Assembly: GCA_017960805.1 (NCBI GenBank)
Contig: JAGCYM010000022.1
Coordinates: 16,242-80,241 of the forward strand
Direction: 5' to 3'
Origin: Ruminococcus sp.
GTDB lineage: Bacteria > Bacillota > Clostridia > Oscillospirales > Ruminococcaceae
Length of the DNA: 64,000 bases
Shown here: in pieces, positions 3,747 through 55,755 of the stretch
How positions within the stretch are numbered: the stretch's first letter is position 1
How the letters are laid out: each line of letters begins with the position of its first letter
Translations under genes and position numbers: made by a program
The notes under the pieces: generated by a model
Told to the model about the DNA's origin: nothing
What the model saw: only the letters and a program-made list of their open reading frames with translations
The model's database searches: none

Positions 3747-4658
3747 TCAATCATATAGTCCCGTACTGAAATAGCGGTCGCCGCGGTCGGGGAAGACCGT
3801 TACGATGTTTCCTTTGGCGCCGCTCTCTATGAGCTTAAGCACAGCTGCCATTGCTGCTCCTGAGGATGAGCCAGCAATAATGCCCTCCTTTGAAGCAAGA
3901 AGCCGTGCTGTGTTGAATGCTTCGTCATCGTTCATTTTTATTACGCCATCGACAAGTGACATATCCATTGTCTCAGCAATGAAGTCATTGCCAATTCCCT
4001 CGATGTTGTAGTCTGCGTGTTCGCCGCCCCCCATAGTTGAGCCGAAAGGATCTGCGAGTATGCCCTTTGCATTAGGGACACGCTCCTTGATGTAACGGAG
4101 TATACCTGTGTATGTGCCGCCGCTTCCCGCACCTGCAACCACATAATCGATCTTGCCGTCAAGAGCTTCATATATCTCGCGGCCTGTAGTCTCGTAGTGA
4201 GCAAGAGGATTGCTCTGGTTCTTGAATTGCTCCAGCGATATTGAATTCGGTATCTGAGCCTTTATTTCCTCAGCCTTTGCGACTGCTCCGAGCATTCCCT
4301 TCTCGCGGGGAGTGTTTACCACTTCAGCCCCAAGAGCACGGAGAAGAGACTGTTTCTCTGCAGAGAACTTCGTGGGCACTACAAATATTATCCTGTATCC
4401 GCGGTTGAGAGCCGCGAACGCTATGCCAAGGCCTGTGTTGCCTGCAGTAGCTTCAACGATAGTACCGCCATCTTTGAGAAGTCCGCGGCGTTCTGCGTCA
4501 TTTATCATATACAGACCTGTGCGGTCTTTTACGCTTCCTGAAGGATTGTAGAGCTCAAGCTTCGCAAATACGTTAACGCCTTCGTTCCTTACAATATTGC
4601 CAAGTCTCACCAGTGGCGTGTTTCCGATGAGTGACTGCATTGAATCATAGTAATTCAT
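3747..4658 (-). CDS. cysK: Cysteine synthase / cystathionine beta-synthase-like PLP enzyme
   Basis: A 303-residue fold-type II PLP enzyme. It has the IGNTPLVRL start, the PLP lysine in NPSGSVKDR, the substrate loop EATAGNTG and the phosphate-cup GAGSGGT. It would make cysteine from O-acetylserine and sulfide, or, as in MccA-type enzymes paired with a cystathionine lyase, cystathionine from homocysteine and activated serine. An in-frame GTG sits directly before the ATG. I chose the ATG at 4658 because it is 7 bases from GGAGG and overlaps the upstream TGA. The neighbouring cystathionine-family gene makes the reverse transsulfuration role attractive. Confidence 0.9.
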   Translation of the reverse strand: MNYYDSMQSLIGNTPLVRLGNIVRNEGVNVFAKLELYNPSGSVKDRTGLYMINDAERRGLLKDGGTIVEATAGNTGLGIAFAALNRGYRIIFVVPTKFSAEKQSLLRALGAEVVNTPREKGMLGAVAKAEEIKAQIPNSISLEQFKNQSNPLAHYETTGREIYEALDGKIDYVVAGAGSGGTYTGILRYIKERVPNAKGILADPFGSTMGGGEHADYNIEGIGNDFIAETMDMSLVDGVIKMNDDEAFNTARLLASKEGIIAGSSSGAAMAAVLKLIESGAKGNIVTVFPDRGDRYFSTGLYD

Positions 4659-5818
4659 CACTTTACCTCCGCTTTTTCTATGGCCTGTGCAAGATCAGCG
4701 AGTATGTCGTCTATGTTCTCGATTCCGACTGACAGGCGTATAAGTCCATCCGTGATACCGACTTTCTTGCGGATATCAGCGGGAATTGAAGCGTGTGTCA
4801 TAGTTGCGGGGTGGCATACGAGCGACTCTACTCCGCCGAGGCTCTCTGCGAGCGAGATCAGCTCAAGACTTTCAAAGAATTTGCGTATGTCATAGTTCTC
4901 ATGGAGTTCGAAGGATATCATAGCACCGCCGTTCTTAGCCTGTCTGCGATTCACCTCATAGCCCTGTGCAGTTGGAAGACCTGGATAATAGACATTCTTC
5001 ACTGCATTGTGAGCAGAGAGAAATTTCGCTGCCTTTTCTGCATTTTCAACGTGTCTGTCGAGACGTACCGCAAGAGTCTTGATGCCACGAATAAGAAGGA
5101 ATGAATCAAATGGTCCGAGGACTCCTCCTGTGGAGTTCTGAATGAAAGCTATCTTTTCGGCAAGCTCCGGAGTGCTGACAACTGCCAGTCCTGAAACAAC
5201 ATCACTGTGTCCTCCAAGGTACTTTGTTGCACTGTGGACTACAATGTCTGCACCGAGGGAGAGTGGCTTCTGTAAGTAAGGAGTCATAAAAGTGTTGTCC
5301 ACTATTACGAGAAGACCGTGTCTGTGTGAAACCTCTGCGACTGCTGCTATATCAGTTACTGTCATCAAAGGATTTGCTGGACTCTCAATGATTACTGCCT
5401 TGACATCATCTGTTATCTGACTTTCATAGACATCAAGATTGGCGGTATCGGCGATGGTGTAGCTGAAGTCGAAGTGATCAAATACTTTGCTCAGAAGACG
5501 GAAGGTTCCACCGTAGACATTGCTGGAAATCAATACTCTGTCACCGCTGTGAAACAGACTGAGTACTGCAGTGAGAGCTGCCATTCCAGATCCGAAGGCA
5601 AATCCGGCATAGCCGCCCTCCAAGTCCCTGATGAGTGCTTCAAGAGCCTCACGTGTAGGATTGCCTGTGCGCGAATATTCATAGCCGCGCATCTTTCCTA
5701 AACCGTCCTGTTTGTAAGTCGAGGTCTGGTATATCGGGATATTTACAGCGCCTGTGCGCTCGTCGATTGATATCCCTCCGTGGATAAGTGCTGTTTCGGT
5801 ATTTTTATATGTACTCAT
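4658..5818 (-). CDS. Cystathionine gamma-lyase/gamma-synthase family enzyme
   Basis: A 386-residue Cys/Met-metabolism PLP enzyme (aspartate aminotransferase fold). The PLP lysine is in VVHSATKYLGGHSDVVSG, and GSGMAAL and IVDNTFMTPYLQ are also family landmarks. It either splits cystathionine to cysteine and 2-oxobutyrate (MccB/CGL) or condenses an activated homoserine with cysteine (MetB). Sequence alone does not decide between the two. Pairing with a cysK-type gene favours the lyase. The gene couples to the next one by an ATGA overlap, and a hairpin (GGGCGAT arms, 5844-5863) lies in the 97-base gap before it. Confidence 0.88.
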   Translation of the reverse strand: MSTYKNTETALIHGGISIDERTGAVNIPIYQTSTYKQDGLGKMRGYEYSRTGNPTREALEALIRDLEGGYAGFAFGSGMAALTAVLSLFHSGDRVLISSNVYGGTFRLLSKVFDHFDFSYTIADTANLDVYESQITDDVKAVIIESPANPLMTVTDIAAVAEVSHRHGLLVIVDNTFMTPYLQKPLSLGADIVVHSATKYLGGHSDVVSGLAVVSTPELAEKIAFIQNSTGGVLGPFDSFLLIRGIKTLAVRLDRHVENAEKAAKFLSAHNAVKNVYYPGLPTAQGYEVNRRQAKNGGAMISFELHENYDIRKFFESLELISLAESLGGVESLVCHPATMTHASIPADIRKKVGITDGLIRLSVGIENIDDILADLAQAIEKAEVK

Positions 5819-5843
5819 GATAATTCTCCTTTTTATCCGTATG

Positions 5844-5863
5844 GGGCGATGCCAATATCGCCC
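5844..5863 (-). promoter_or_regulatory. Intercistronic hairpin between methyltransferase and cystathionine enzyme genes
   Basis: Perfect 7-bp inverted arms GGGCGAT/ATCGCCC with a 6-base loop lie in the 97-base gap between the two genes. No U-tract follows on either strand, so this is more likely an mRNA processing or stability element than a terminator. Confidence 0.45.
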
Positions 5864-5915
5864 GGCAGTTCAGAATCTTTTTTCAATATGACCGTGTGGC
5901 CATCAGTTCCTTTTA

Positions 5916-6812
5916 TTATTCATAATCATAGCCTGAAGTATAGGTTGCAGATATCAGACTCACGTTTTCAAATGCTCTGAGGTCATCCGAGCGTCCTTCG
6001 AAGTATTCTCTCTGAATTTTCTCTGGTGTCATATATGTGTCTATCTGGAAGCCGAGAGAGTACAGGGCACGCGAGACTTCATTATAATCGAATCCTCCGC
6101 GCATAACCTCACCGAGTGAAGCGGTTATTTCTTCTAGCTGAGATACTCTTCGGGGGAAAGTGCCTGTTTTCATCGGGTAGTCGAACACTACCTCGCTTCC
6201 TAGAGCTGACAGCTCTGACATTTGTCTCAGCGTATCTGTAAATACGTCAAGTGTGAGGTAGTAGGATACTCCGAGTATGCTGAAAAATGTTTTTATATTA
6301 GGGTCGAAGCCAGCTTCAATTAGCTTTTCACACATTTGCTCTTTCTCGAAATCAACAGGCACATAGTGTACATTCTGGCGGAGATTCCATTTCAGCTCCC
6401 TGATCTTTTCAAGCTTGTAACGCTGTGTGTCAGGGTGATCTATTTCGAATATCTCAATGTTATCATTTTCGTTGCGGAACGAAAATGTGTCAGAACCCGC
6501 ACCACAGATGACATACTGTATCTTACCGTTTTCCTTAGCGAAGTCTTCAAGCCTAACTTCATTGAAGTGTATGCGTGAGAGTGGTATGGGAGCGAAGTAC
6601 TCATTGATTATCTGTTCGGTGTCCTCGCGTGACAGAGACTGCGAACCGTCAAGGCCGCTGTTTATCATAGTGTAGATCGTTTCGTATTCTTCTTTACCCA
6701 TAAAGTCATAGGCAAGGTAGTCATCGTATATTTTCTGACGTGAGCGGTTTGAGTGCCATGCTCTTACAAATGCACATATTTTTGCTGTTATGCTTTCTCT
6801 TTCATTGACCAT
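5916..6812 (-). CDS. LCM-superfamily class I SAM-dependent methyltransferase
   Basis: A 298-residue protein resembling the leucine carboxyl methyltransferase superfamily (PPM1-like). It carries a SAM-binding loop YVICGAGSDTFSFR followed by the acidic strand IFEIDHPDTQ. The substrate is unknown; members methylate carboxylates or secondary metabolites. I chose the ATG at 6812 because GGAGG lies 5 bases upstream. An upstream in-frame TTG at 6830 would place that site inside the gene. It is the first structural gene after the Cys-rich leader and terminator, so it is probably controlled by sulfur supply and cotranscribed with the transsulfuration enzymes. Confidence 0.8.
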   Translation of the reverse strand: MVNERESITAKICAFVRAWHSNRSRQKIYDDYLAYDFMGKEEYETIYTMINSGLDGSQSLSREDTEQIINEYFAPIPLSRIHFNEVRLEDFAKENGKIQYVICGAGSDTFSFRNENDNIEIFEIDHPDTQRYKLEKIRELKWNLRQNVHYVPVDFEKEQMCEKLIEAGFDPNIKTFFSILGVSYYLTLDVFTDTLRQMSELSALGSEVVFDYPMKTGTFPRRVSQLEEITASLGEVMRGGFDYNEVSRALYSLGFQIDTYMTPEKIQREYFEGRSDDLRAFENVSLISATYTSGYDYE

Positions 6813-6822
6813 AAGTTCCTCC

Positions 6823-6854
6823 AAAAACAAAAATGCGCAGAACGCTGACGCATT
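6823..6854 (-). terminator. Attenuator terminator upstream of the transsulfuration operon
   Basis: On the minus strand the arms AATGCG(T)CAG and CTGCGCATT close on a 4-base CGTT loop: nine pairs with one bulged T, followed by TTTGTTTTT. It lies between the leader ORF stop (6883) and the ribosome-binding site of the methyltransferase gene (6818-6822), which is the position of a transcription attenuator. A copy of the descending arm (CTGCG) occurs inside the leader ORF at 6917-6921 and could compete for the ascending arm. Confidence 0.8.
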
Positions 6855-6882
6855 CCACGCATGTTAATTAACCCGTTGATGT

Positions 6883-6975
6883 TCAGGAGAAACGGCAACA
6901 TCGCTGAGCATAAGCACGCAGAATACGTATATATTTCATATTACACATACAACAACACATCATATTTGCTTTCAT
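6883..6975 (-). CDS. Cys/Met-rich leader peptide (putative attenuator ORF)
   Basis: A 30-codon ORF with ribosome-binding site AAGGGGT 7-8 bases before its ATG. It encodes six cysteines (residues 7, 8, 9, 11, 26, 27) and five methionines; residues 5-11 read MMCCCMC. It lies about 45 bases downstream of the predicted transcription start and is followed by the intrinsic terminator at 6823-6854. This is the layout of trp/his-type attenuators, in which ribosomes stalling at Cys codons when Cys-tRNA is scarce would prevent termination. The core Met-Lys-Tyr-Ile-Arg (13-17) recurs in the leader at 10167-10229. Function is inferred. Confidence 0.75.
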   Translation of the reverse strand: MKANMMCCCMCNMKYIRILRAYAQRCCRFS

Positions 6976-7026
6976 GTTCAGCACCCCTTTCAATTAATTC
7001 ACTGTATTCCTATCGGAACTATATGA

Positions 7027-7055
7027 ATTATACCATTTTCTGATAGATCTGTCAA
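7027..7055 (-). promoter_or_regulatory. Consensus sigma-A promoter of the transsulfuration operon
   Basis: TTGACA (7055-7050), 17-bp spacer, TATAAT (7032-7027) on the minus strand: a perfect consensus. The predicted start is near 7020, giving a leader of about 205 nt before the first structural gene. The spacer holds a near-palindrome GACAGATCTATC. So strong a promoter in front of a biosynthetic operon is consistent with control by attenuation rather than by initiation alone. Confidence 0.85.
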
Positions 7056-7110
7056 TAGGTTACGGCTATATTCGGCAATAGTTATAGAAATTTCCTACAA
7101 TTCATATCGT

Positions 7111-7161
7111 CTTTGTAGAATATGCGGATTTTGCTTTGTAATGGCGTATTTGGGCTTTGTA
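7111..7161. repeat. Three CTTTGTA direct repeats upstream of the sulfur promoter
   Basis: CTTTGTA occurs at 7111-7117, 7134-7140 and 7155-7161, spaced 23 and 21 bp (about two helical turns), 55-105 bp upstream of the -35 box. This could be an activator-binding array, for example for the operon's LysR protein. The motif is short and AT-rich, so chance is possible. Confidence 0.35.
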
Positions 7162-7184
7162 TGATGATCATCCTTGGACCGCAT

Positions 7185-7221
7185 TAAAGAAAAAGGGGAT
7201 AATGTAAAAGAACATTATCCC
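7185..7221 (-). terminator. Intrinsic terminator of the ABC transporter operon
   Basis: On the minus strand a perfect 10-bp stem GGGATAATGT/ACATTATCCC with a 6-base loop is followed by CTTTTTCTTT, immediately after the permease stop codon. It separates the ABC operon from the transsulfuration promoter downstream. Confidence 0.9.
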
Positions 7222-8142
7222 TCATCTTTTCCACCTCAGAAGGTGTGACTGCAATTTGTTGAACAGGAATGTCACGGCGATGACAACGATACCGATGACG
7301 AGAAGTCCTGTTATTGTTCGTGTGTAGTCTCCAAAGTCGGAGTAGTATTTAACATAGTAGCCCATTCCGTCTCGTGCGCCAATCATCTCTGCTGATGTCA
7401 GGAGGATGAATGATACGCTAAGTCCCTGATTGCAACCAAGGAAGATCTGCTGCAAAGAAGCAGGAAGTATTACCCGGAAGAGCATTTCGGGTTTGCTTAC
7501 ATTGAGCACTTTTGCGGAGTCGATTATTTTTTTGTCAACGCCAAGCACACCGCTCATCGTACCTGCAAACACAGGCCAAAATGTTGCAAGGAAGATAACA
7601 AATACCGATACTGATTTAAAAGTAGGCAGAAGCGCAATACCATATGGAATATATACTATCGGAGGTATTGAGCTGAAAAACTTTGTAATGTAAGTTGCTG
7701 CACTGCCCACTCTTGCGCTCCATCCTATAAAGAGTCCGAGCGGAACTGCTACGATAACAGCCAGCAGGAATCCCTTAATAGTAGTTCCCAGAGAGCTTTC
7801 TATATTGATGAATATTTTGTCCTTGTCTTCAACAAACTGGTGTATCACCTTGCCGGGAGCAGGAAACAGCAAGTCATTCAGAATATTGAACTTTGCTGTT
7901 GCAAGCGACCACACTCCCAGAAGGGCGAATATGAAGCTGGCAATATCTACTACAAGTTTAAGGCTCTCTTCCTTCTTGATGAATGACGAAATAATAAGGA
8001 TTATAATTTCTGCCGCTACAGCAAATGTAATTAGCTTTCCTGTGTATACATCTTTTGTAGATTTGTCAGGCAGGAGCTGTATAAGAAGCAGAGCAATGAA
8101 GAGCAGGTGTACAACTCTTAGATAACGTTTTGCAATTGTCAT
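7222..8142 (-). CDS. ABC transporter permease, sulfonate/nitrate/taurine (SsuC/TauC-like) type
   Basis: A 306-residue inner-membrane permease with several hydrophobic segments. It carries the BPD-transporter EAA-type loop near residues 225-250 (LQQIFLGCNQGLSVSFILLT) that docks on the ATPase. Its N-terminal pair of membrane segments before residue 75 is longer than in E. coli SsuC. The start overlaps the ATPase stop by ATGA. The family imports alkanesulfonates, taurine, nitrate or thiamine precursors. Placement beside cysteine genes favours an organosulfur substrate, by inference. Confidence 0.85.
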   Translation of the reverse strand: MTIAKRYLRVVHLLFIALLLIQLLPDKSTKDVYTGKLITFAVAAEIIILIISSFIKKEESLKLVVDIASFIFALLGVWSLATAKFNILNDLLFPAPGKVIHQFVEDKDKIFINIESSLGTTIKGFLLAVIVAVPLGLFIGWSARVGSAATYITKFFSSIPPIVYIPYGIALLPTFKSVSVFVIFLATFWPVFAGTMSGVLGVDKKIIDSAKVLNVSKPEMLFRVILPASLQQIFLGCNQGLSVSFILLTSAEMIGARDGMGYYVKYYSDFGDYTRTITGLLVIGIVVIAVTFLFNKLQSHLLRWKR

Positions 8143-8957
8143 AGTACCACCTCTTCTCCACCGATACGCTCTGCTATGTCAGTATTCAGAAGAGAGAGAA
8201 GCTTGTTGCGGAACTTGTTGTACTCATCTGTTTTGACAAGTTCAGCACGGCTTCTAGGACGATCGAATGGAACGTTTACCACTTCATTGACCGTGCCCGG
8301 ATGAGCAGTGAGAACGACTATCTTATCTGAGAGCAGAATAGCCTCATCGATGTCGTGAGTAACAAATACGACTGTCTTGCGTTCTTCAGTACCGTCACCT
8401 TCCCACAATGAGAGAAGAAGTTCCTGAAGAATAATGCGGTTTTTGGGATCAATTGCGCTGAACGGCTCATCCATGAGGAGAATCTCCGTGTTCATAGCAA
8501 GAGCTCTTGCTATAGCCGCTCTCTGCTGCATACCACCTGAAAGCTGTGATGGATACTTGCTTCCTGCGTCAGCAAGTCCGACCTTTGTGAGAAATTCGTC
8601 CGCAAGCTTTGAACGTTCACGGCGCTTGATATTGCGGTGTGTCTGCTTTATACCAAATTCTATGTTTTTCTTTGTGGTCATCCATGGGAAGAGTGAGTAG
8701 TGCTGGAACACAACTCCACGTTCTGAACCTGTACCATGTAATTCCTTGCCGTCAATCTGAACTGAACCACCGGCCGGAGCGTAAAGTCCTTCAAGTACAC
8801 TCAGTAGAGTGGATTTGCCGCATCCGCTTGCACCGATAACACTCACGAACTCTCCGCTCTGCACACCGAATGATACATCATGGAGAGCGTTGAAGCTGTG
8901 CTTATTGTCTATATAGTTGACGGTAAGGTCTTTTATTTCAATCTTATTCGTAGTCAT
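8139..8957 (-). CDS. ABC transporter ATP-binding protein (SsuB/TauB-like)
   Basis: A 272-residue ATPase with Walker A GASGCGKST, Q-loop FQHYSLFPW, signature LSGGMQQR, Walker B ILLMDEPFSAID and the H-loop VTHD. It powers import by the adjacent permease. I chose the ATG at 8957 (AGGAG 7 bases upstream) over an in-frame TTG at 8960. The gene overlaps the end of the binding-protein gene by 14 bases and the permease start by 4, so all three are translationally coupled. Confidence 0.92.
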   Translation of the reverse strand: MTTNKIEIKDLTVNYIDNKHSFNALHDVSFGVQSGEFVSVIGASGCGKSTLLSVLEGLYAPAGGSVQIDGKELHGTGSERGVVFQHYSLFPWMTTKKNIEFGIKQTHRNIKRRERSKLADEFLTKVGLADAGSKYPSQLSGGMQQRAAIARALAMNTEILLMDEPFSAIDPKNRIILQELLLSLWEGDGTEERKTVVFVTHDIDEAILLSDKIVVLTAHPGTVNEVVNVPFDRPRSRAELVKTDEYNKFRNKLLSLLNTDIAERIGGEEVVL

Positions 8958-10131
8958 CAAAATGCTCCTTTAAAGATGTGTATATTTCATCGGAGTTTTC
9001 GGCTAAGATGCTGTCGAGAGCTTTCTTGTAAATATCAGTGTTATAGTGAGCCTCGATATCAAAATCATCAGTATAGCCGAGTTCAACGATGGTGTTTTTA
9101 AGTGTTACCGTTCCCTGTTTGTCTGGGTCGGGACTTGATACACTATAACCACCGTACACCTCTGTGTCGATGAAATCTTCTTCGATATCTATGTATTTCT
9201 TGACATCCTTAACTGTACCCTCGTGATCGCTCTGTGTAAAGTGATACGCCTTTATGAATGCTCTTTCAATTGCTGTGTATGTATTAGGATAGCTACTGAG
9301 TGCTTCAGTTCTTGCAACCTGACGGCAGCAAGGTTGATTCTCGAGTGCTTTTTCATGTGCACAGTAGTAAACAACCTTGTATCCCTGAGACTTTGCCAGC
9401 GAAGCATAGGGAGAGTAAACTGAAGCAGCATCTATTGTACTGTTCAGCAAAGCTGCATAAGCATCTTTCTGGCTGTCAAAGTAGACGATATTAACTTTAT
9501 CGGCACCTTCGCCTATTTCAATGTTAGCATCGCGAAGAAGTATCTGAAGCTCAGCGTCCTGAACGCTGTTCTTGACTGAAGCGACATTTCTGCCCTTGAG
9601 GACTTCAACGCCTGCCTCGTCCTTGTCAGCGTACTCTGATTTGATAACGTAGCCGTGACCATTAGTCATTGCTCCGCCGAATACGGATATTTCGTGTCCC
9701 TGGCTCTCAAATGTTAGGGTCGGAACCGAGCCGATGAAGGCTACATCAAGCTTTTGCGACTCAAGGCCGTTGACGAGTTCAGCTGCGCTCGAGAACTGGG
9801 TGAGCGTAACGTTGAGCCCCTCATCCTTGAAGTAGCCTTCCTCGGATGCTACGAACGCGAGCAGATGCGCCGTAGAGTTAAGATATCCAATGTTGATGTC
9901 TGTTTTTTCTGGTTTACCGAGGACCTCAGATGCACTGTCACCGCAGCAGTCAGCGGGTTCAGAGCAGCAATCTTTATCCTTGCCTTCACAGCAATCCTTG
10001 CTCTCTTCAGTTTCGGAAGTTACAGATGTTGTCTGATCTTCAGAGCCCTCAGAACTGTTATTGAATGCTCCACAGCCTGTGAGAAGTGAAGCAGCTAAAA
10101 GAATGGAAAAAATCTTTGTTTTATTATTCAT
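8944..10131 (-). CDS. ABC substrate-binding lipoprotein (SsuA/NMT1-like) with a Cys-pair linker
   Basis: A 395-residue lipoprotein. The signal peptide ends in lipobox LLTGC (Cys20). Residues 45-65 hold three Cys-Cys pairs (47-48, 55-56, 62-63) in an acidic linker. A type 2 periplasmic-binding fold of the nitrate/sulfonate/taurine class follows (INIGYLNSTAHLLAFVASEEGYF, then LDVAFIGSVPTLTF). Another pair, CC, occurs in the segment ENQPCCRQVAR. The pairs are not a general family feature and could bind a metal or thiol. It captures the substrate outside the membrane for the adjacent permease and ATPase; the substrate is unknown. Confidence 0.85.
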   Translation of the reverse strand: MNNKTKIFSILLAASLLTGCGAFNNSSEGSEDQTTSVTSETEESKDCCEGKDKDCCSEPADCCGDSASEVLGKPEKTDINIGYLNSTAHLLAFVASEEGYFKDEGLNVTLTQFSSAAELVNGLESQKLDVAFIGSVPTLTFESQGHEISVFGGAMTNGHGYVIKSEYADKDEAGVEVLKGRNVASVKNSVQDAELQILLRDANIEIGEGADKVNIVYFDSQKDAYAALLNSTIDAASVYSPYASLAKSQGYKVVYYCAHEKALENQPCCRQVARTEALSSYPNTYTAIERAFIKAYHFTQSDHEGTVKDVKKYIDIEEDFIDTEVYGGYSVSSPDPDKQGTVTLKNTIVELGYTDDFDIEAHYNTDIYKKALDSILAENSDEIYTSLKEHFDDYE

Positions 10132-10166
10132 TATTTATCAGCCTTTCGTTTTTGGGTAGAATTTGT

Positions 10167-10229
10167 TTACTTAGTGAATGCTATACAACGCATTCGTTCC
10201 GAAAAGCTTATATATCTAATGTAATTCAT
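10167..10229 (-). CDS. Short leader peptide upstream of the ABC operon
   Basis: A 20-codon ORF whose ATG is 8 bases after AGGAG. Residues 1-5 are MNYIR, matching the MKYIR core of the Cys-rich leader at 6883-6975, and a Cys occurs at residue 15. It lies between the promoter at 10261-10289 and the binding-protein gene, whose start is 36 bases downstream. Inside the ORF, arms GAATGC and GCATTC (8-base loop) can form a hairpin, but no U-tract follows. If functional it would act on translation or readthrough rather than by a simple terminator. Confidence 0.55.
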   Translation of the reverse strand: MNYIRYISFSERMRCIAFTK

Positions 10230-10260
10230 TATCATCACTCCTGTGTTTTTCTATGTGTTA

Positions 10261-10289
10261 ATCATACCATATCCGTAGGTATTTGTCTA
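10261..10289 (-). promoter_or_regulatory. Promoter of the ABC operon with overlapping inverted repeat
   Basis: TAGACA (10289-10284), 17 bp, TATGAT (10266-10261) on the minus strand, one mismatch in each box. A perfect inverted repeat ATACC-N9-GGTAT (10264-10282) spans the spacer and the -10 box. ATAC/GTAT half-sites are common for LysR proteins and repressors, so this may be an operator for the regulator at 2825-3736. Confidence 0.65.
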
Positions 10290-10299
10290 ATACGTATAC

Positions 10300-10480
10300 T
10301 CTATGGTGACCTATAGATTTTTTCTATCGCTCTTCAACATCAGAAAATGGCTGTATTATAGGAGTTTGTACGCTGATTTGTAGCCGGAGAATCGCATGTT
10401 TAAAGCATACCTAAAGAATAGGAATAAAGAACGCGGCTGTGGGGTTGATAGAATAAATACATATAAGTGTGTTTCTCTTA
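10300..10480. other. Intergenic stretch without a convincing gene
   Basis: Between the ABC promoter and the cellobiose phosphorylase terminator I see only an imperfect palindrome (CTAT...ATAG, about 10301-10316). A 40-codon plus-strand ORF (10396-10518) is also present, but its end runs through the terminator hairpin and I do not accept it as a gene. Confidence 0.5.
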
Positions 10481-10512
10481 AAATCAAAAAACTCCGAGGT
10501 ACTCTCGGAGTT
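10481..10512 (-). terminator. Intrinsic terminator downstream of cellobiose phosphorylase
   Basis: On the minus strand a 9-bp stem (AACTCCGAG/CTCGGAGTT) with a 5-base loop is followed by TTTTTTGATTTT. Confidence 0.85.
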
Positions 10513-10575
10513 AAGTAATAATATATGAGATTACTTTTTGTAGGTTTGAAGGGATTTAGATTCGTTTTGAAATCA

Positions 10576-10604
10576 GAAATGGCTGCACAATGTGCAGCCA
10601 TTTC
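10576..10604. repeat. Perfect 13-bp inverted repeat after cellobiose phosphorylase
   Basis: GAAATGGCTGCAC and GTGCAGCCATTTC flank a 3-base loop. No U-tract follows on either strand, so it is not a simple terminator; the true terminator lies about 65 bases further on. It may protect the 3' end of the mRNA. Confidence 0.7.
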
Positions 10605-10629
10605 AAATATAACTTGTTTTTGCTTATTA

Positions 10630-13044
10630 TTAACCAAGAACTACCTTAACTTCATTTGTATCAGCAAGCTTGTCGGCAGGAATATAATTACCATCAAGCT
10701 TTGTACCATTAAGGATGATCTCTTTAACACCAGACTGAACATGTGCAGCGTTGTCAACAGTGATGTTGAGCTTCTTACCGCGGAAGTTCTTGAAAATCTT
10801 GAAGCCGTCCCATGAAGCAGGGATAGAAGGATCAATCTTAAGACCGCCGAGGTCAGGACGCATGCCGCAGATGCCCTCAACACAACCGACCATAACTGTT
10901 GAAGCTGTTCCGGTAAGCCAGTGTACATGTGAACGTCCTTCATATGGAGAAGCCTTTGATTCAGTGAACTGACCATGTACATATGGTTCCATAACACGGA
11001 TCTCAGCCTTATCATTCATTGCAGCAGGAGAGCTTTCGAGGAAGTACTCAAATGCACGGTCACCGTGGCCGAGAAGTGCTTCAGCAAGGATGAGCCAGCC
11101 CTGTGACTGTGAGAAGATACCGCCGTTTTCCTTGGTATCAAGGTTGAATACCTGCATCAGAGCACCGCTGAAGTGATGATACTTATATGGAGGTTCAAGG
11201 AGCTTTGCTCCGTAAGGTGTATTAAGAATATCATGAACGCTGTTCATTGCCTTTTCAGCTTGTTCTTCTGAAGCAAAGCGAGAGATTACAGACCAGCTCT
11301 GCGGATTGAGCCACATGTTAGCTTCTGGATCCTTCTTTGCACCAACGATAACACCGTTATCGCGGATACCTCTGATGAATCTGTCTTCGTCCCAGCACTT
11401 TTCAAGAGCATCGCCGAGCTTCTTCTGAACGCCTGTAATATAGTCAACATATTCATTGTCACCGCGAGATACAGCCATATCCTTGATAACTGTCATTGCA
11501 TAGTAAAGCTGGAAAGCAACGAATGTGGATTCGCCCTGTGCACCAAGACGTAGACAGTCGTTCCAGTCAGCGTGAAGACCAGCGGGCATATCGTGACTGC
11601 CGAGACGCTCAAGTGAGAATCTTATAGCGTTCTTGAGATGTTCATAGACTGTAGCTTCACCGCCGCCTTCTTCGGCATAAGTGATAACCTCATCGAGGAA
11701 TGCCTTGTTGCCGCTTTCACCAAGGTACTTTACAATAGTCGGGAAGAGCCAGAGCGCATCGTCAGCACGATATGAAGGATGACCTGTTTCCTTTGCGTAA
11801 ACACTGTGTTCGTCGTTCTCATCAGGACAGGTTTCGTGACCTGCATTGTGAGTGAACTTAACAAGTGGGAGACCGCCACCATTGCTGACCTGTGCAGAAA
11901 GCATGAAACGGATCTTTTCTGCAGCAAGCTCTGGATCAAGGTGAATGATGCCCTGGATATCCTGAACGGTATCACGGTAGCCGTATCCGTTACGGAGACC
12001 GCAGTAAACAAATGATGCTGCTCTTGACCATATGAAAGTAATGAAGCACTGATAAGCATTCCATACATTGATCATGTTGTTGAACTCATCAGAAGGAGTT
12101 TCAACCTGGAAATTTGAAAGCTGACCGTGCCAGTAGTCCTTGAGTTGTTTGATATCAGCGTCTACCTTACCTGCAGCCTTGTATTCGTTAAGTATAACAT
12201 CTGCCTCGGCACTGTTGCGCTGACCCATGATAAATACAAATTCCTTGGTTTCTCCGGGAGCAAGAGTGATATCACTCTGAAGAGCGCCGCATGAATTGGA
12301 GTTGAAGTTCATTACGCCGTCGCACTTACCAGACTCAACAGCTATAGGATTTGAGAATGTTCTGTAAGGTCCGATGAAGTTGCTGAGAGAACCATTGTAG
12401 CCTGTTACAGGCTGACCAACCATACCGAAGAAACGCTCCTTGTGATTGGAACCTGTTTCGTCAAATCCTGTGTTTTCATTCATATGCTGGATTATACGGT
12501 TATCCTCGAAGCTTGTACGAGTGATGAAAAGCGTATACTGGAGATTAACCTGATCCTGCTCATAGTTAGGCTCGTTTGTAAACTCAACCATTCCGTAAAC
12601 GGAAAGCTTTCTTTCTTTATCAGAAGCATTAGTTACCTTAGCACGCCATACTTCAAATGTCTTGCCATATGGAACATAATATGTAACCTCAGATTTAATA
12701 TCTGTGTATTCTGCGGAGATTATTGTATATGCAGTACCGTGACGGCATTCACTCTTGTACTTGTCAAGCGGCTTGCCAACAGGCTGCCATGAAGCTGACC
12801 AGTAATCGTTTGCTTCATTGTCACGGATATAAATATAACGTCCCGGAAGTGCCATGTCGGAATTGAAACGGAAACGTGATATACGTCCGTTAGCGCCTGA
12901 CTTAACAAAACTGTATCCTGCAGCGTTATTTGAGATCATAGCGCCATATTCTGGATCACCGAGATAGTTTGCCCATGGTGCGGGAGTAGCGGGATTTGTG
13001 ATGACATATTCCTTGTTTTCAAGATCAAAATGTCCGTACTTCAT
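10630..13044 (-). CDS. GH94 cellobiose phosphorylase
   Basis: An 804-residue cytoplasmic glycoside phosphorylase, close to the usual 810. It converts cellobiose and phosphate to glucose-1-phosphate and glucose, saving ATP in cellulose fermentation. The N-terminus KYGHFDLENKEYVITNPATP and PWANYLG matches family 94, and the general acid Asp is expected in the motif HADWNDCL. The GH5 cellulase in the same window produces its substrate. Close GH94 alternatives are cellodextrin or chitobiose phosphorylase. The expression signals are a TTGATT-17-TATAAT promoter at 13112-13140, GGAG before the ATG and a terminator at 10481-10512. Confidence 0.87.
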   Translation of the reverse strand: MKYGHFDLENKEYVITNPATPAPWANYLGDPEYGAMISNNAAGYSFVKSGANGRISRFRFNSDMALPGRYIYIRDNEANDYWSASWQPVGKPLDKYKSECRHGTAYTIISAEYTDIKSEVTYYVPYGKTFEVWRAKVTNASDKERKLSVYGMVEFTNEPNYEQDQVNLQYTLFITRTSFEDNRIIQHMNENTGFDETGSNHKERFFGMVGQPVTGYNGSLSNFIGPYRTFSNPIAVESGKCDGVMNFNSNSCGALQSDITLAPGETKEFVFIMGQRNSAEADVILNEYKAAGKVDADIKQLKDYWHGQLSNFQVETPSDEFNNMINVWNAYQCFITFIWSRAASFVYCGLRNGYGYRDTVQDIQGIIHLDPELAAEKIRFMLSAQVSNGGGLPLVKFTHNAGHETCPDENDEHSVYAKETGHPSYRADDALWLFPTIVKYLGESGNKAFLDEVITYAEEGGGEATVYEHLKNAIRFSLERLGSHDMPAGLHADWNDCLRLGAQGESTFVAFQLYYAMTVIKDMAVSRGDNEYVDYITGVQKKLGDALEKCWDEDRFIRGIRDNGVIVGAKKDPEANMWLNPQSWSVISRFASEEQAEKAMNSVHDILNTPYGAKLLEPPYKYHHFSGALMQVFNLDTKENGGIFSQSQGWLILAEALLGHGDRAFEYFLESSPAAMNDKAEIRVMEPYVHGQFTESKASPYEGRSHVHWLTGTASTVMVGCVEGICGMRPDLGGLKIDPSIPASWDGFKIFKNFRGKKLNITVDNAAHVQSGVKEIILNGTKLDGNYIPADKLADTNEVKVVLG

Positions 13045-55654: not shown

Positions 55655-55755
55655 ATGAAGCGGGATGCAAAGCGCGAACCGCGGCATATAGCCTTCGTCC
55701 AGCCGACAACTCCCCGTCCGGCAGGCACTTAACGAACTCGCTTTTACTCTTCAGC
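55655..55755 (-). ncRNA. Tetrahydrofolate (THF) riboswitch
   Basis: On the minus strand the element reads, with gaps: GTTCGTTAAGTGCCTG, then GGACGGGGAGTTG, then GGACGAAGGC, then GCATCCCGCTTC. These are the conserved blocks of the THF riboswitch found upstream of folT in Firmicutes. A terminal TGAAG/CTTCA helix closes it. Binding of reduced folates lowers expression of folT-folC. Confidence 0.87.

Follow-up and report, generated by a model that had tools for sequence, protein, structure and literature searches.

A predicted cysteine-codon attenuator ahead of a methyltransferase and transsulfuration operon in Ruminococcus

The trp, his and ilv leaders are the classical ribosome-mediated transcription attenuators. 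In a 64,000-nt stretch of Ruminococcus sp. DNA (the window, to which all coordinates refer unless a locus is named), we analyzed a minus-strand element at 7055-6812 that resembles these leaders in having a short open reading frame (ORF) with codons for the end product, followed by an antiterminator arm, a U-tract terminator and a biosynthetic operon. It differs from them in its amino acid (Cys) and its host (a Ruminococcus of the Clostridia). Further differences are a second Cys pair, located past the antiterminator arm, and a stop codon placed too far away to cover that arm. In Bacillus subtilis, the cysteine-controlled yrrT-mtnN-mccA-mccB operon combines an S-adenosylmethionine (SAM) methyltransferase with reverse transsulfuration genes; it is governed by the protein repressor CymR instead of an attenuator, and its methyltransferase is, to our knowledge, of another family. 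A 2020 study by Canestrari reportedly deals, by its title, with the response of mycobacterial Cys leaders to Cys. Excerpts of PMC8632094 describe the uORFC-8-2 motif ahead of cysS in Rhodobacterales as a predicted Cys attenuator with tandem Cys codons and an intrinsic terminator. In those excerpts the gene encodes cysteinyl-tRNA synthetase, the hosts are Alphaproteobacteria and the Cys codons are 14-15; compared by description rather than by sequence, our element is not uORFC-8-2, as it precedes a methyltransferase in Ruminococcus records rather than cysS in Rhodobacterales. Leader peptides with Cys runs also precede cys operons in Actinobacteria, where the excerpted report found no conserved terminator (PMC1262725); the element shares the Cys-codon runs ahead of cysteine genes, and here the terminator is conserved. 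Mycobacterial cysteine genes are placed under translation attenuation in the excerpted text of PMC13236596. In bacilli, according to excerpts of PMC2965389, His leader peptides precede hisS/hisZ; they are likewise leader-peptide attenuators in Firmicutes, where T-boxes are usual, and theirs concern histidine and hisS/hisZ. The main texts of PMC11109978, PMC6429828 and PMC2864571 contain neither 'cysteine' nor 'Ruminococc'. We found no report of a Cys attenuator for this operon or in Clostridia in the open-access literature, a search with subscription journals mostly outside it and supplements uncovered. As far as searched, the kind of attenuator is known and its occurrence in this operon and lineage is new.

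We propose that the element is a classical ribosome-mediated transcription attenuator sensing charged tRNA-Cys, a prediction that we consider highly likely, and that the operon is very probably switched on when cysteine runs short. Transcription would start at the consensus promoter and a ribosome would load on the leader. With ample cysteinyl-tRNA, the ribosome would pass the Cys block and the antiterminator arm would be covered or refolded onto upstream leader RNA; with the arm unavailable, the 13-bp terminator would form and transcription would stop ahead of the operon. With scarce cysteinyl-tRNA, the ribosome would stall in codons 7-11 with its leading edge stopping shortly before the arm at 6928-6915, and the freed arm would pair with the ascending arm of the terminator around a nested hairpin. 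RNA polymerase would then read into the methyltransferase, cystathionine-lyase and CysK genes. If this proposal is true, anaerobic Clostridia control the methionine-to-cysteine route by a Cys-codon attenuator and need no dedicated protein regulator for it; T-boxes are used at other sites of this genome (nine matches, six of them over the cut-off).

The perfect minus-strand promoter described in an earlier note on this DNA, and the 30-codon ORF with its ribosome-binding site, six Cys codons (7, 8, 9, 11, 26 and 27) and five Met codons, are present as stated there (Table 1). The terminator, taken in that note for a 9-bp bulged stem, is instead an unbulged stem of 13 pairs, in which 6862-6850 pairs with 6845-6833 around the loop GUCA, followed by UUUUGUUUUU. 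The proposed antiterminator CTGCG (6921-6917) is present, and its extent was understated, as it is part of a 14-nt arm (6928-6915). The fold of 7020-6812 gave a z-score of -3.65, and none of 200 shuffles was equally good. At the background Cys rate of 0.93% (3240 codons in nine window genes), at least six Cys in 30 codons has P = 3e-7 for a single ORF. The window has 791 frames that start with ATG and span 15-50 codons; seven sites among them reach six Cys, the leader included (the other six frames are 40-49 codons long), so the Cys count of the leader is weak evidence by itself and conservation decides.

Among 119 relatives searched for the methyltransferase, 35 gave a match at E <= 1e-20, and the 30 full-length ones were taken as loci. 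A short Cys-rich upstream ORF, mostly of the form CCCMC..RIL..YAQRCC, was found in 29/30 loci, as were the exact promoter hexamers and spacing. A scan of named species genomes with the pattern YTRTGCTCAGCGATGTTG returned 64 stretches; we judged 39 by eye to be leaders, in records titled Ruminococcus (many R. flavefaciens) and in two cases Clostridiales or Bacillota bacterium, and rejected the remaining 25, which look like chance or other genes. With two duplicates dropped, 29 leaders via the gene and 14 via the pattern gave 43 distinct leaders of the R. flavefaciens group, for which having an ORF with Cys was a condition of being counted. Each is followed by a U-tract hairpin (-12.1 to -22.5 kcal/mol) and by the methyltransferase; the Cys codons and the terminator are thus conserved in relatives. 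A cystathionine-lyase homologue also lies downstream in 38 (the other five sequence stretches end before or shortly after its place), and ssu-type transporter genes lie upstream in 38. The spacing is kept as well, and Cys frequencies are 0.88, 0.95 and 1.00 at aligned offsets -16, -15 and -14. The terminator has 510 of 550 cells paired and both-side changes at 8 of its 13 pairs. A profile of 21 leader peptides gave 30 strong matches among the 119 relatives (E <= 7.3e-7), every one in a genome that has the methyltransferase, and in the same set no further match ahead of other operons fell below E = 0.001, the next best being 0.0014.

The antiterminator and terminator arms evolve together. The codons that follow the first Cys block, which in the window are CGU AUU CUG CGU, base-pair with the ascending arm of the terminator, and over the 43 leaders this duplex had -18.4 kcal/mol with its own arms, -17.0 with arms swapped between species and -11.9 with the leader shuffled. 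None of 5000 permutations reached the own value. Because relatedness inflates this test, the both-side changes matter too; they occur at 8 of the 14 antiterminator pairs, and 528 of the 601 cells are paired. We also masked a ribosome footprint, of a size that we chose, and folded the transcript as far as the ascending arm. Placing the A-site on the Cys block (offsets -16 to -12) gave the antiterminator a value of 0.74-0.78; the value was 0.01 just past the block, at all six offsets from -6 to -1, and 0.37-0.62 with the ribosome beyond the second Cys pair. The value at the Cys block exceeded that of the middle in all 43 leaders and was at least 0.5 in 38. For the window leader, the antiterminator was 0.88 when stalled, 0.02 without a ribosome, 0.05 at the second Cys pair and 0.00 at the stop. 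The ORF with its Cys run, the U-tract hairpin and the antiterminator, which the earlier note had put together as an attenuator layout, are all supported by conservation.

The layout recurs in other genera. Orthologues of the methyltransferase with 48-61% identity to that of the window occur in eight genera (G072, G342, G424, G258, G521, G589, G621 and G472), one in the family to which the window belongs and seven in other families. A Cys-rich leader and a terminator, both of different sequence, stand at 8/8 of these loci, for example SCCCRCYSDTGG (L153), NCCCCPCCIDTGG (L163) and NCFCCCILC (L164). In a uniform scan for an ORF with CC and at least three Cys plus a hairpin below -15 kcal/mol with a U-tract, leader and hairpin were found in 8/8 orthologues versus 0/14 paralogues (31-38% identity), a hairpin limit chosen after the values had been seen, the best paralogue hairpin being -12.0. 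Two paralogues have such a Cys ORF, with no hairpin or one of -5.7. The orthologue terminators are all U-tract hairpins, of -17.6 to -34.1 kcal/mol; at L153 the scan picked a hairpin inside the leader, and the one after its stop has -18.7. The distant leader peptides, 29-53 residues long, have little in common except Cys. Their starts are less certain than in the genus, and some may lie inside operons because several loci have a second CysK homologue or ssu genes just upstream. The antiterminator was clear against 500 shuffles in four of the eight loci (equally good shuffles: L153, 9; L164, 9; L163, 15; L156, 25), and own arms compared with swapped ones gave 155 equally good permutations of 5000. 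By eye, 7/8 loci have the mask pattern of high values on the Cys run followed by low ones, and L150 lacks it. With leaders of other sequence, the same architecture and the same gene, the eight genera could show turnover of a leader-peptide attenuator with its logic kept.

Several results weigh against the proposed attenuator. Once the descending arm is included, equilibrium folding favours the terminator despite the stall (0.97 in the window; mean of the 43 leaders 0.59 stalled versus 0.86 without a ribosome), which means that the choice must be kinetic and must fall during transcript elongation. In three leaders (L057, L081 and L086) the nascent antiterminator was about 1.0 whatever the ribosome state, and in L069 it was low even when stalled. 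A ribosome at the stop codon is too far downstream to cover the arm, and the mean antiterminator value there was 0.40. One locus, L029, has neither leader nor promoter, with only 147 nt before the contig end. Among the distant loci, the antiterminators of L150 and L155 were no better than shuffles (412 and 165 of 500 equally good), those of L162 and L161 were marginal (52 and 93 of 500), and a near-consensus promoter lies upstream in only 1/8 (L164). The candidate antiterminator of G072 was set aside as not better than shuffles. As for the contig end of G035 that carries L029, its 147 upstream nt look unrelated and are perhaps an assembly join.

The second Cys pair belongs to a near-invariant block, the codons of which among the 43 leaders are GCU (42), CAG (41), CGA (42), UGU (42) and UGC (39); 14 of these leaders were found by the block itself and are conserved by construction, and among the gene-found leaders the count is 28/29 for each of GCU, CGA and UGU. 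The CGA codon is otherwise rare, with 3 of 3240 codons in the nine window genes. Two alternative partners are available to the block RNA, the start of the leader and the post-stop segment. The block/post-stop hairpin, seen in the mask fold with the ribosome on the Cys block, has 341 of 410 cells paired with no both-side change and beats shuffles (-12.0 versus -7.4 kcal/mol); own pairing was no better than swapped (3159 of 5000 permutations equally good), as expected because one side is invariant. The start-site/block pairing had -11.0 versus -6.3 kcal/mol shuffled and at least five predicted pairs in 30/43 leaders; of its 18 pairs, 4 show both-side changes, and these all lie in a poorly pairing outer extension rather than in the block. 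It is possible, though we hold it only tentatively, that the element is a two-checkpoint Cys attenuator in which Cys codons flank the antiterminator strand and the second block is both peptide code and switch strand. The block might then pair with the start site of the leader, blocking re-initiation, or with post-stop RNA, shaping the antiterminator. Such a design is favoured by the presence of Cys beyond the proposed arm in 5/8 distant leaders of other sequence (9 of 54 residues are Cys, P ~2e-9 against the background rate, with arm ends of our choosing; excluding L150 and L155, the arms of which did not beat shuffles, 3 of 29 residues, P = 0.002). Against it, a stall at the second block gave no gain in mask folding (means of 0.49-0.56 versus about 0.54 without a ribosome), the value in the window's own leader was only the 0.05 given above, and none of the pairs that the block itself forms has changed on both sides. 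A +1 frame (MLSDVA...) beginning with AUG or GUG likewise starts in the invariant block (6895-6912, minus strand) of the leaders examined and is probably a by-product of the fixed nucleotides.

The conservation of AQRCC in nearly all 43 leaders is also what one would expect if the nascent Cys-rich chain, or its near-invariant end, were itself a sensor of metal or oxidant that stalls or frees the ribosome and works the same RNA switch. Cys-rich leader peptides sense copper or redox in Alphaproteobacteria and Bordetella, which lends this explanation a precedent. We consider it improbable: apart from Cys, conservation of the peptide does not extend across genera, the genes of the operon make cysteine, and AQRCC is fixed at the codon level, synonymous positions included, which points to a role of the RNA. 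Translational control, in which stalling on the leader would open the methyltransferase ribosome-binding site, with the hairpin a secondary feature, is a shade less probable still. It draws on the window fold, the only fold in which the leader end GUUUCUCC was seen to pair with GGAGGAAC ahead of the methyltransferase, and on the translation attenuation of mycobacterial Cys leaders in the excerpted account (PMC13236596); U-tract hairpins in 43/43 and 8/8 leaders, with both-side changes in the stem, speak for control at termination. The five Met codons, the M-M-C-C-C-M-C motif common in the genus and a pathway that in L176 starts from methionine might suggest that methionine, or methionine and cysteine together, is sensed; in the distant leaders Met is not enriched in most (1-6, mostly far from the Cys run) and all have 3-8 Cys, which makes this very improbable. 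The same low standing applies to a modified peptide or other functional small protein. In its favour, the L153 leader weakly matches a family of modified-peptide toxins (17.3 bits; cut-off, 35); against it, the seven other distant leaders had no match, NCBIfam small-protein and leader-peptide models gave no match above cut-off for the window leader or the eight distant ones, the window leader has no NCBIfam family, and the operon genes scanned included none recognised as modifying peptides.

Table 1. Coordinates of the attenuator element and the operon genes in the window
Feature	Position	Strand	Evidence
Promoter TTGACA-17-TATAAT, extended -10	7027..7055	-	12/12 consensus matches, TG ahead of -10
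Possible 5' stem-loop GUUCC-GAUA-GGAAU at RNA start	7006..7020	-	Window fold; TCCGATAGGAATAC largely conserved in alignment
Leader ribosome-binding site AAAGGGG	6984..6990	-	Sequence; purine-rich site precedes all 43 leaders
Leader ORF MKANMMCCCMCNMKYIRILRAYAQRCCRFS, 30 codons, ATG 6975, stop TGA 6885-6883	6883..6975	-	Sequence and conservation
First Cys block, codons 7-9 and 11, proposed sensing stall site	6943..6957	-	Aligned Cys
Antiterminator arm ACGUAUUCUGCGUG, 14 nt, codons R17 to R20	6915..6928	-	Duplex and both-side changes
Near-invariant block UAUGCUCAGCGAUGUUGC with second Cys pair, codons 26-27	6895..6912	-	Codon conservation
Post-stop segment AACAUC...GGGU, hairpin partner of the block, nested inside antiterminator	6871..6883	-	Mask fold
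Terminator hairpin, 13 pairs, -19.0 kcal/mol	6833..6862	-	Fold
U-tract UUUUGUUUUU	6823..6832	-	Sequence
First operon gene, SAM-dependent methyltransferase, ATG 6812	5916..6812	-	Pfam LCM PF04072, NCBIfam TIGR00027
Cystathionine lyase/synthase family (Cys/Met metabolism pyridoxal-phosphate enzyme)	4658..5818	-	PF01053
CysK / cystathionine beta-synthase family enzyme	3747..4661	-	PF00291

The ribosome-binding site of the methyltransferase is GGAGG at 6822-6818. Both pyridoxal-phosphate enzymes scored below the cut-offs of their best NCBIfam models (lyase family: NF005810, 560 versus 594 bits; CysK family: TIGR01136, 335.9 versus 344.15, and TIGR01137, 333.5 versus 510.25), and both are accordingly assigned at the level of their families. 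L176 (G472, 5451-10783, plus strand) has a Cys leader ahead of a row of methyltransferase, SAM synthetase, LuxS, nucleosidase-like, lyase and CysK homologue genes, apparently a complete methionine-to-cysteine operon as judged from its gene content. The nucleosidase-like gene encodes a phosphorylase-superfamily protein placed like an S-adenosylhomocysteine (SAH) nucleosidase; two homologues of it lie elsewhere in the genome of the window. In L179 (G621, 5712-7832, minus strand) methyltransferase and SAM synthetase are fused in one 706-aa frame. Such gene order points to a conversion of methionine to SAM, SAH, homocysteine and cysteine, and for a family that models name merely SAM-dependent methyltransferase it suggests the task of supplying SAH for transsulfuration.

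In L177 (G258, 4514-9000) an early end leaves the methyltransferase frame at 251 aa; beyond it, the opposite strand encodes a D12 DNA adenine methyltransferase and an M23 peptidase, perhaps an inserted prophage. A mechanical scan for ORFs only, in genomes without the methyltransferase, flagged Cys ORFs (4-6 Cys) upstream of cystathionine-lyase homologues (43-49% identity) in 7 of 12 loci (L135-L146); we judged these to be chance. A T-box, a SAM riboswitch or another riboswitch at the attenuator locus was considered and rejected, with no Rfam match at gathering score there or in 11 loci; the only such match in the window is a tetrahydrofolate (THF) riboswitch at 55656-55753 on the minus strand. 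Upstream of the element, an SsuA-like lipoprotein (8944-10131, minus strand) has a Cys-rich stretch, DCCEGKDKDCCSEPADCCGD, behind its lipobox, and a similar stretch was found in three of the ten loci scanned by one pattern (L054, L078 and L094).
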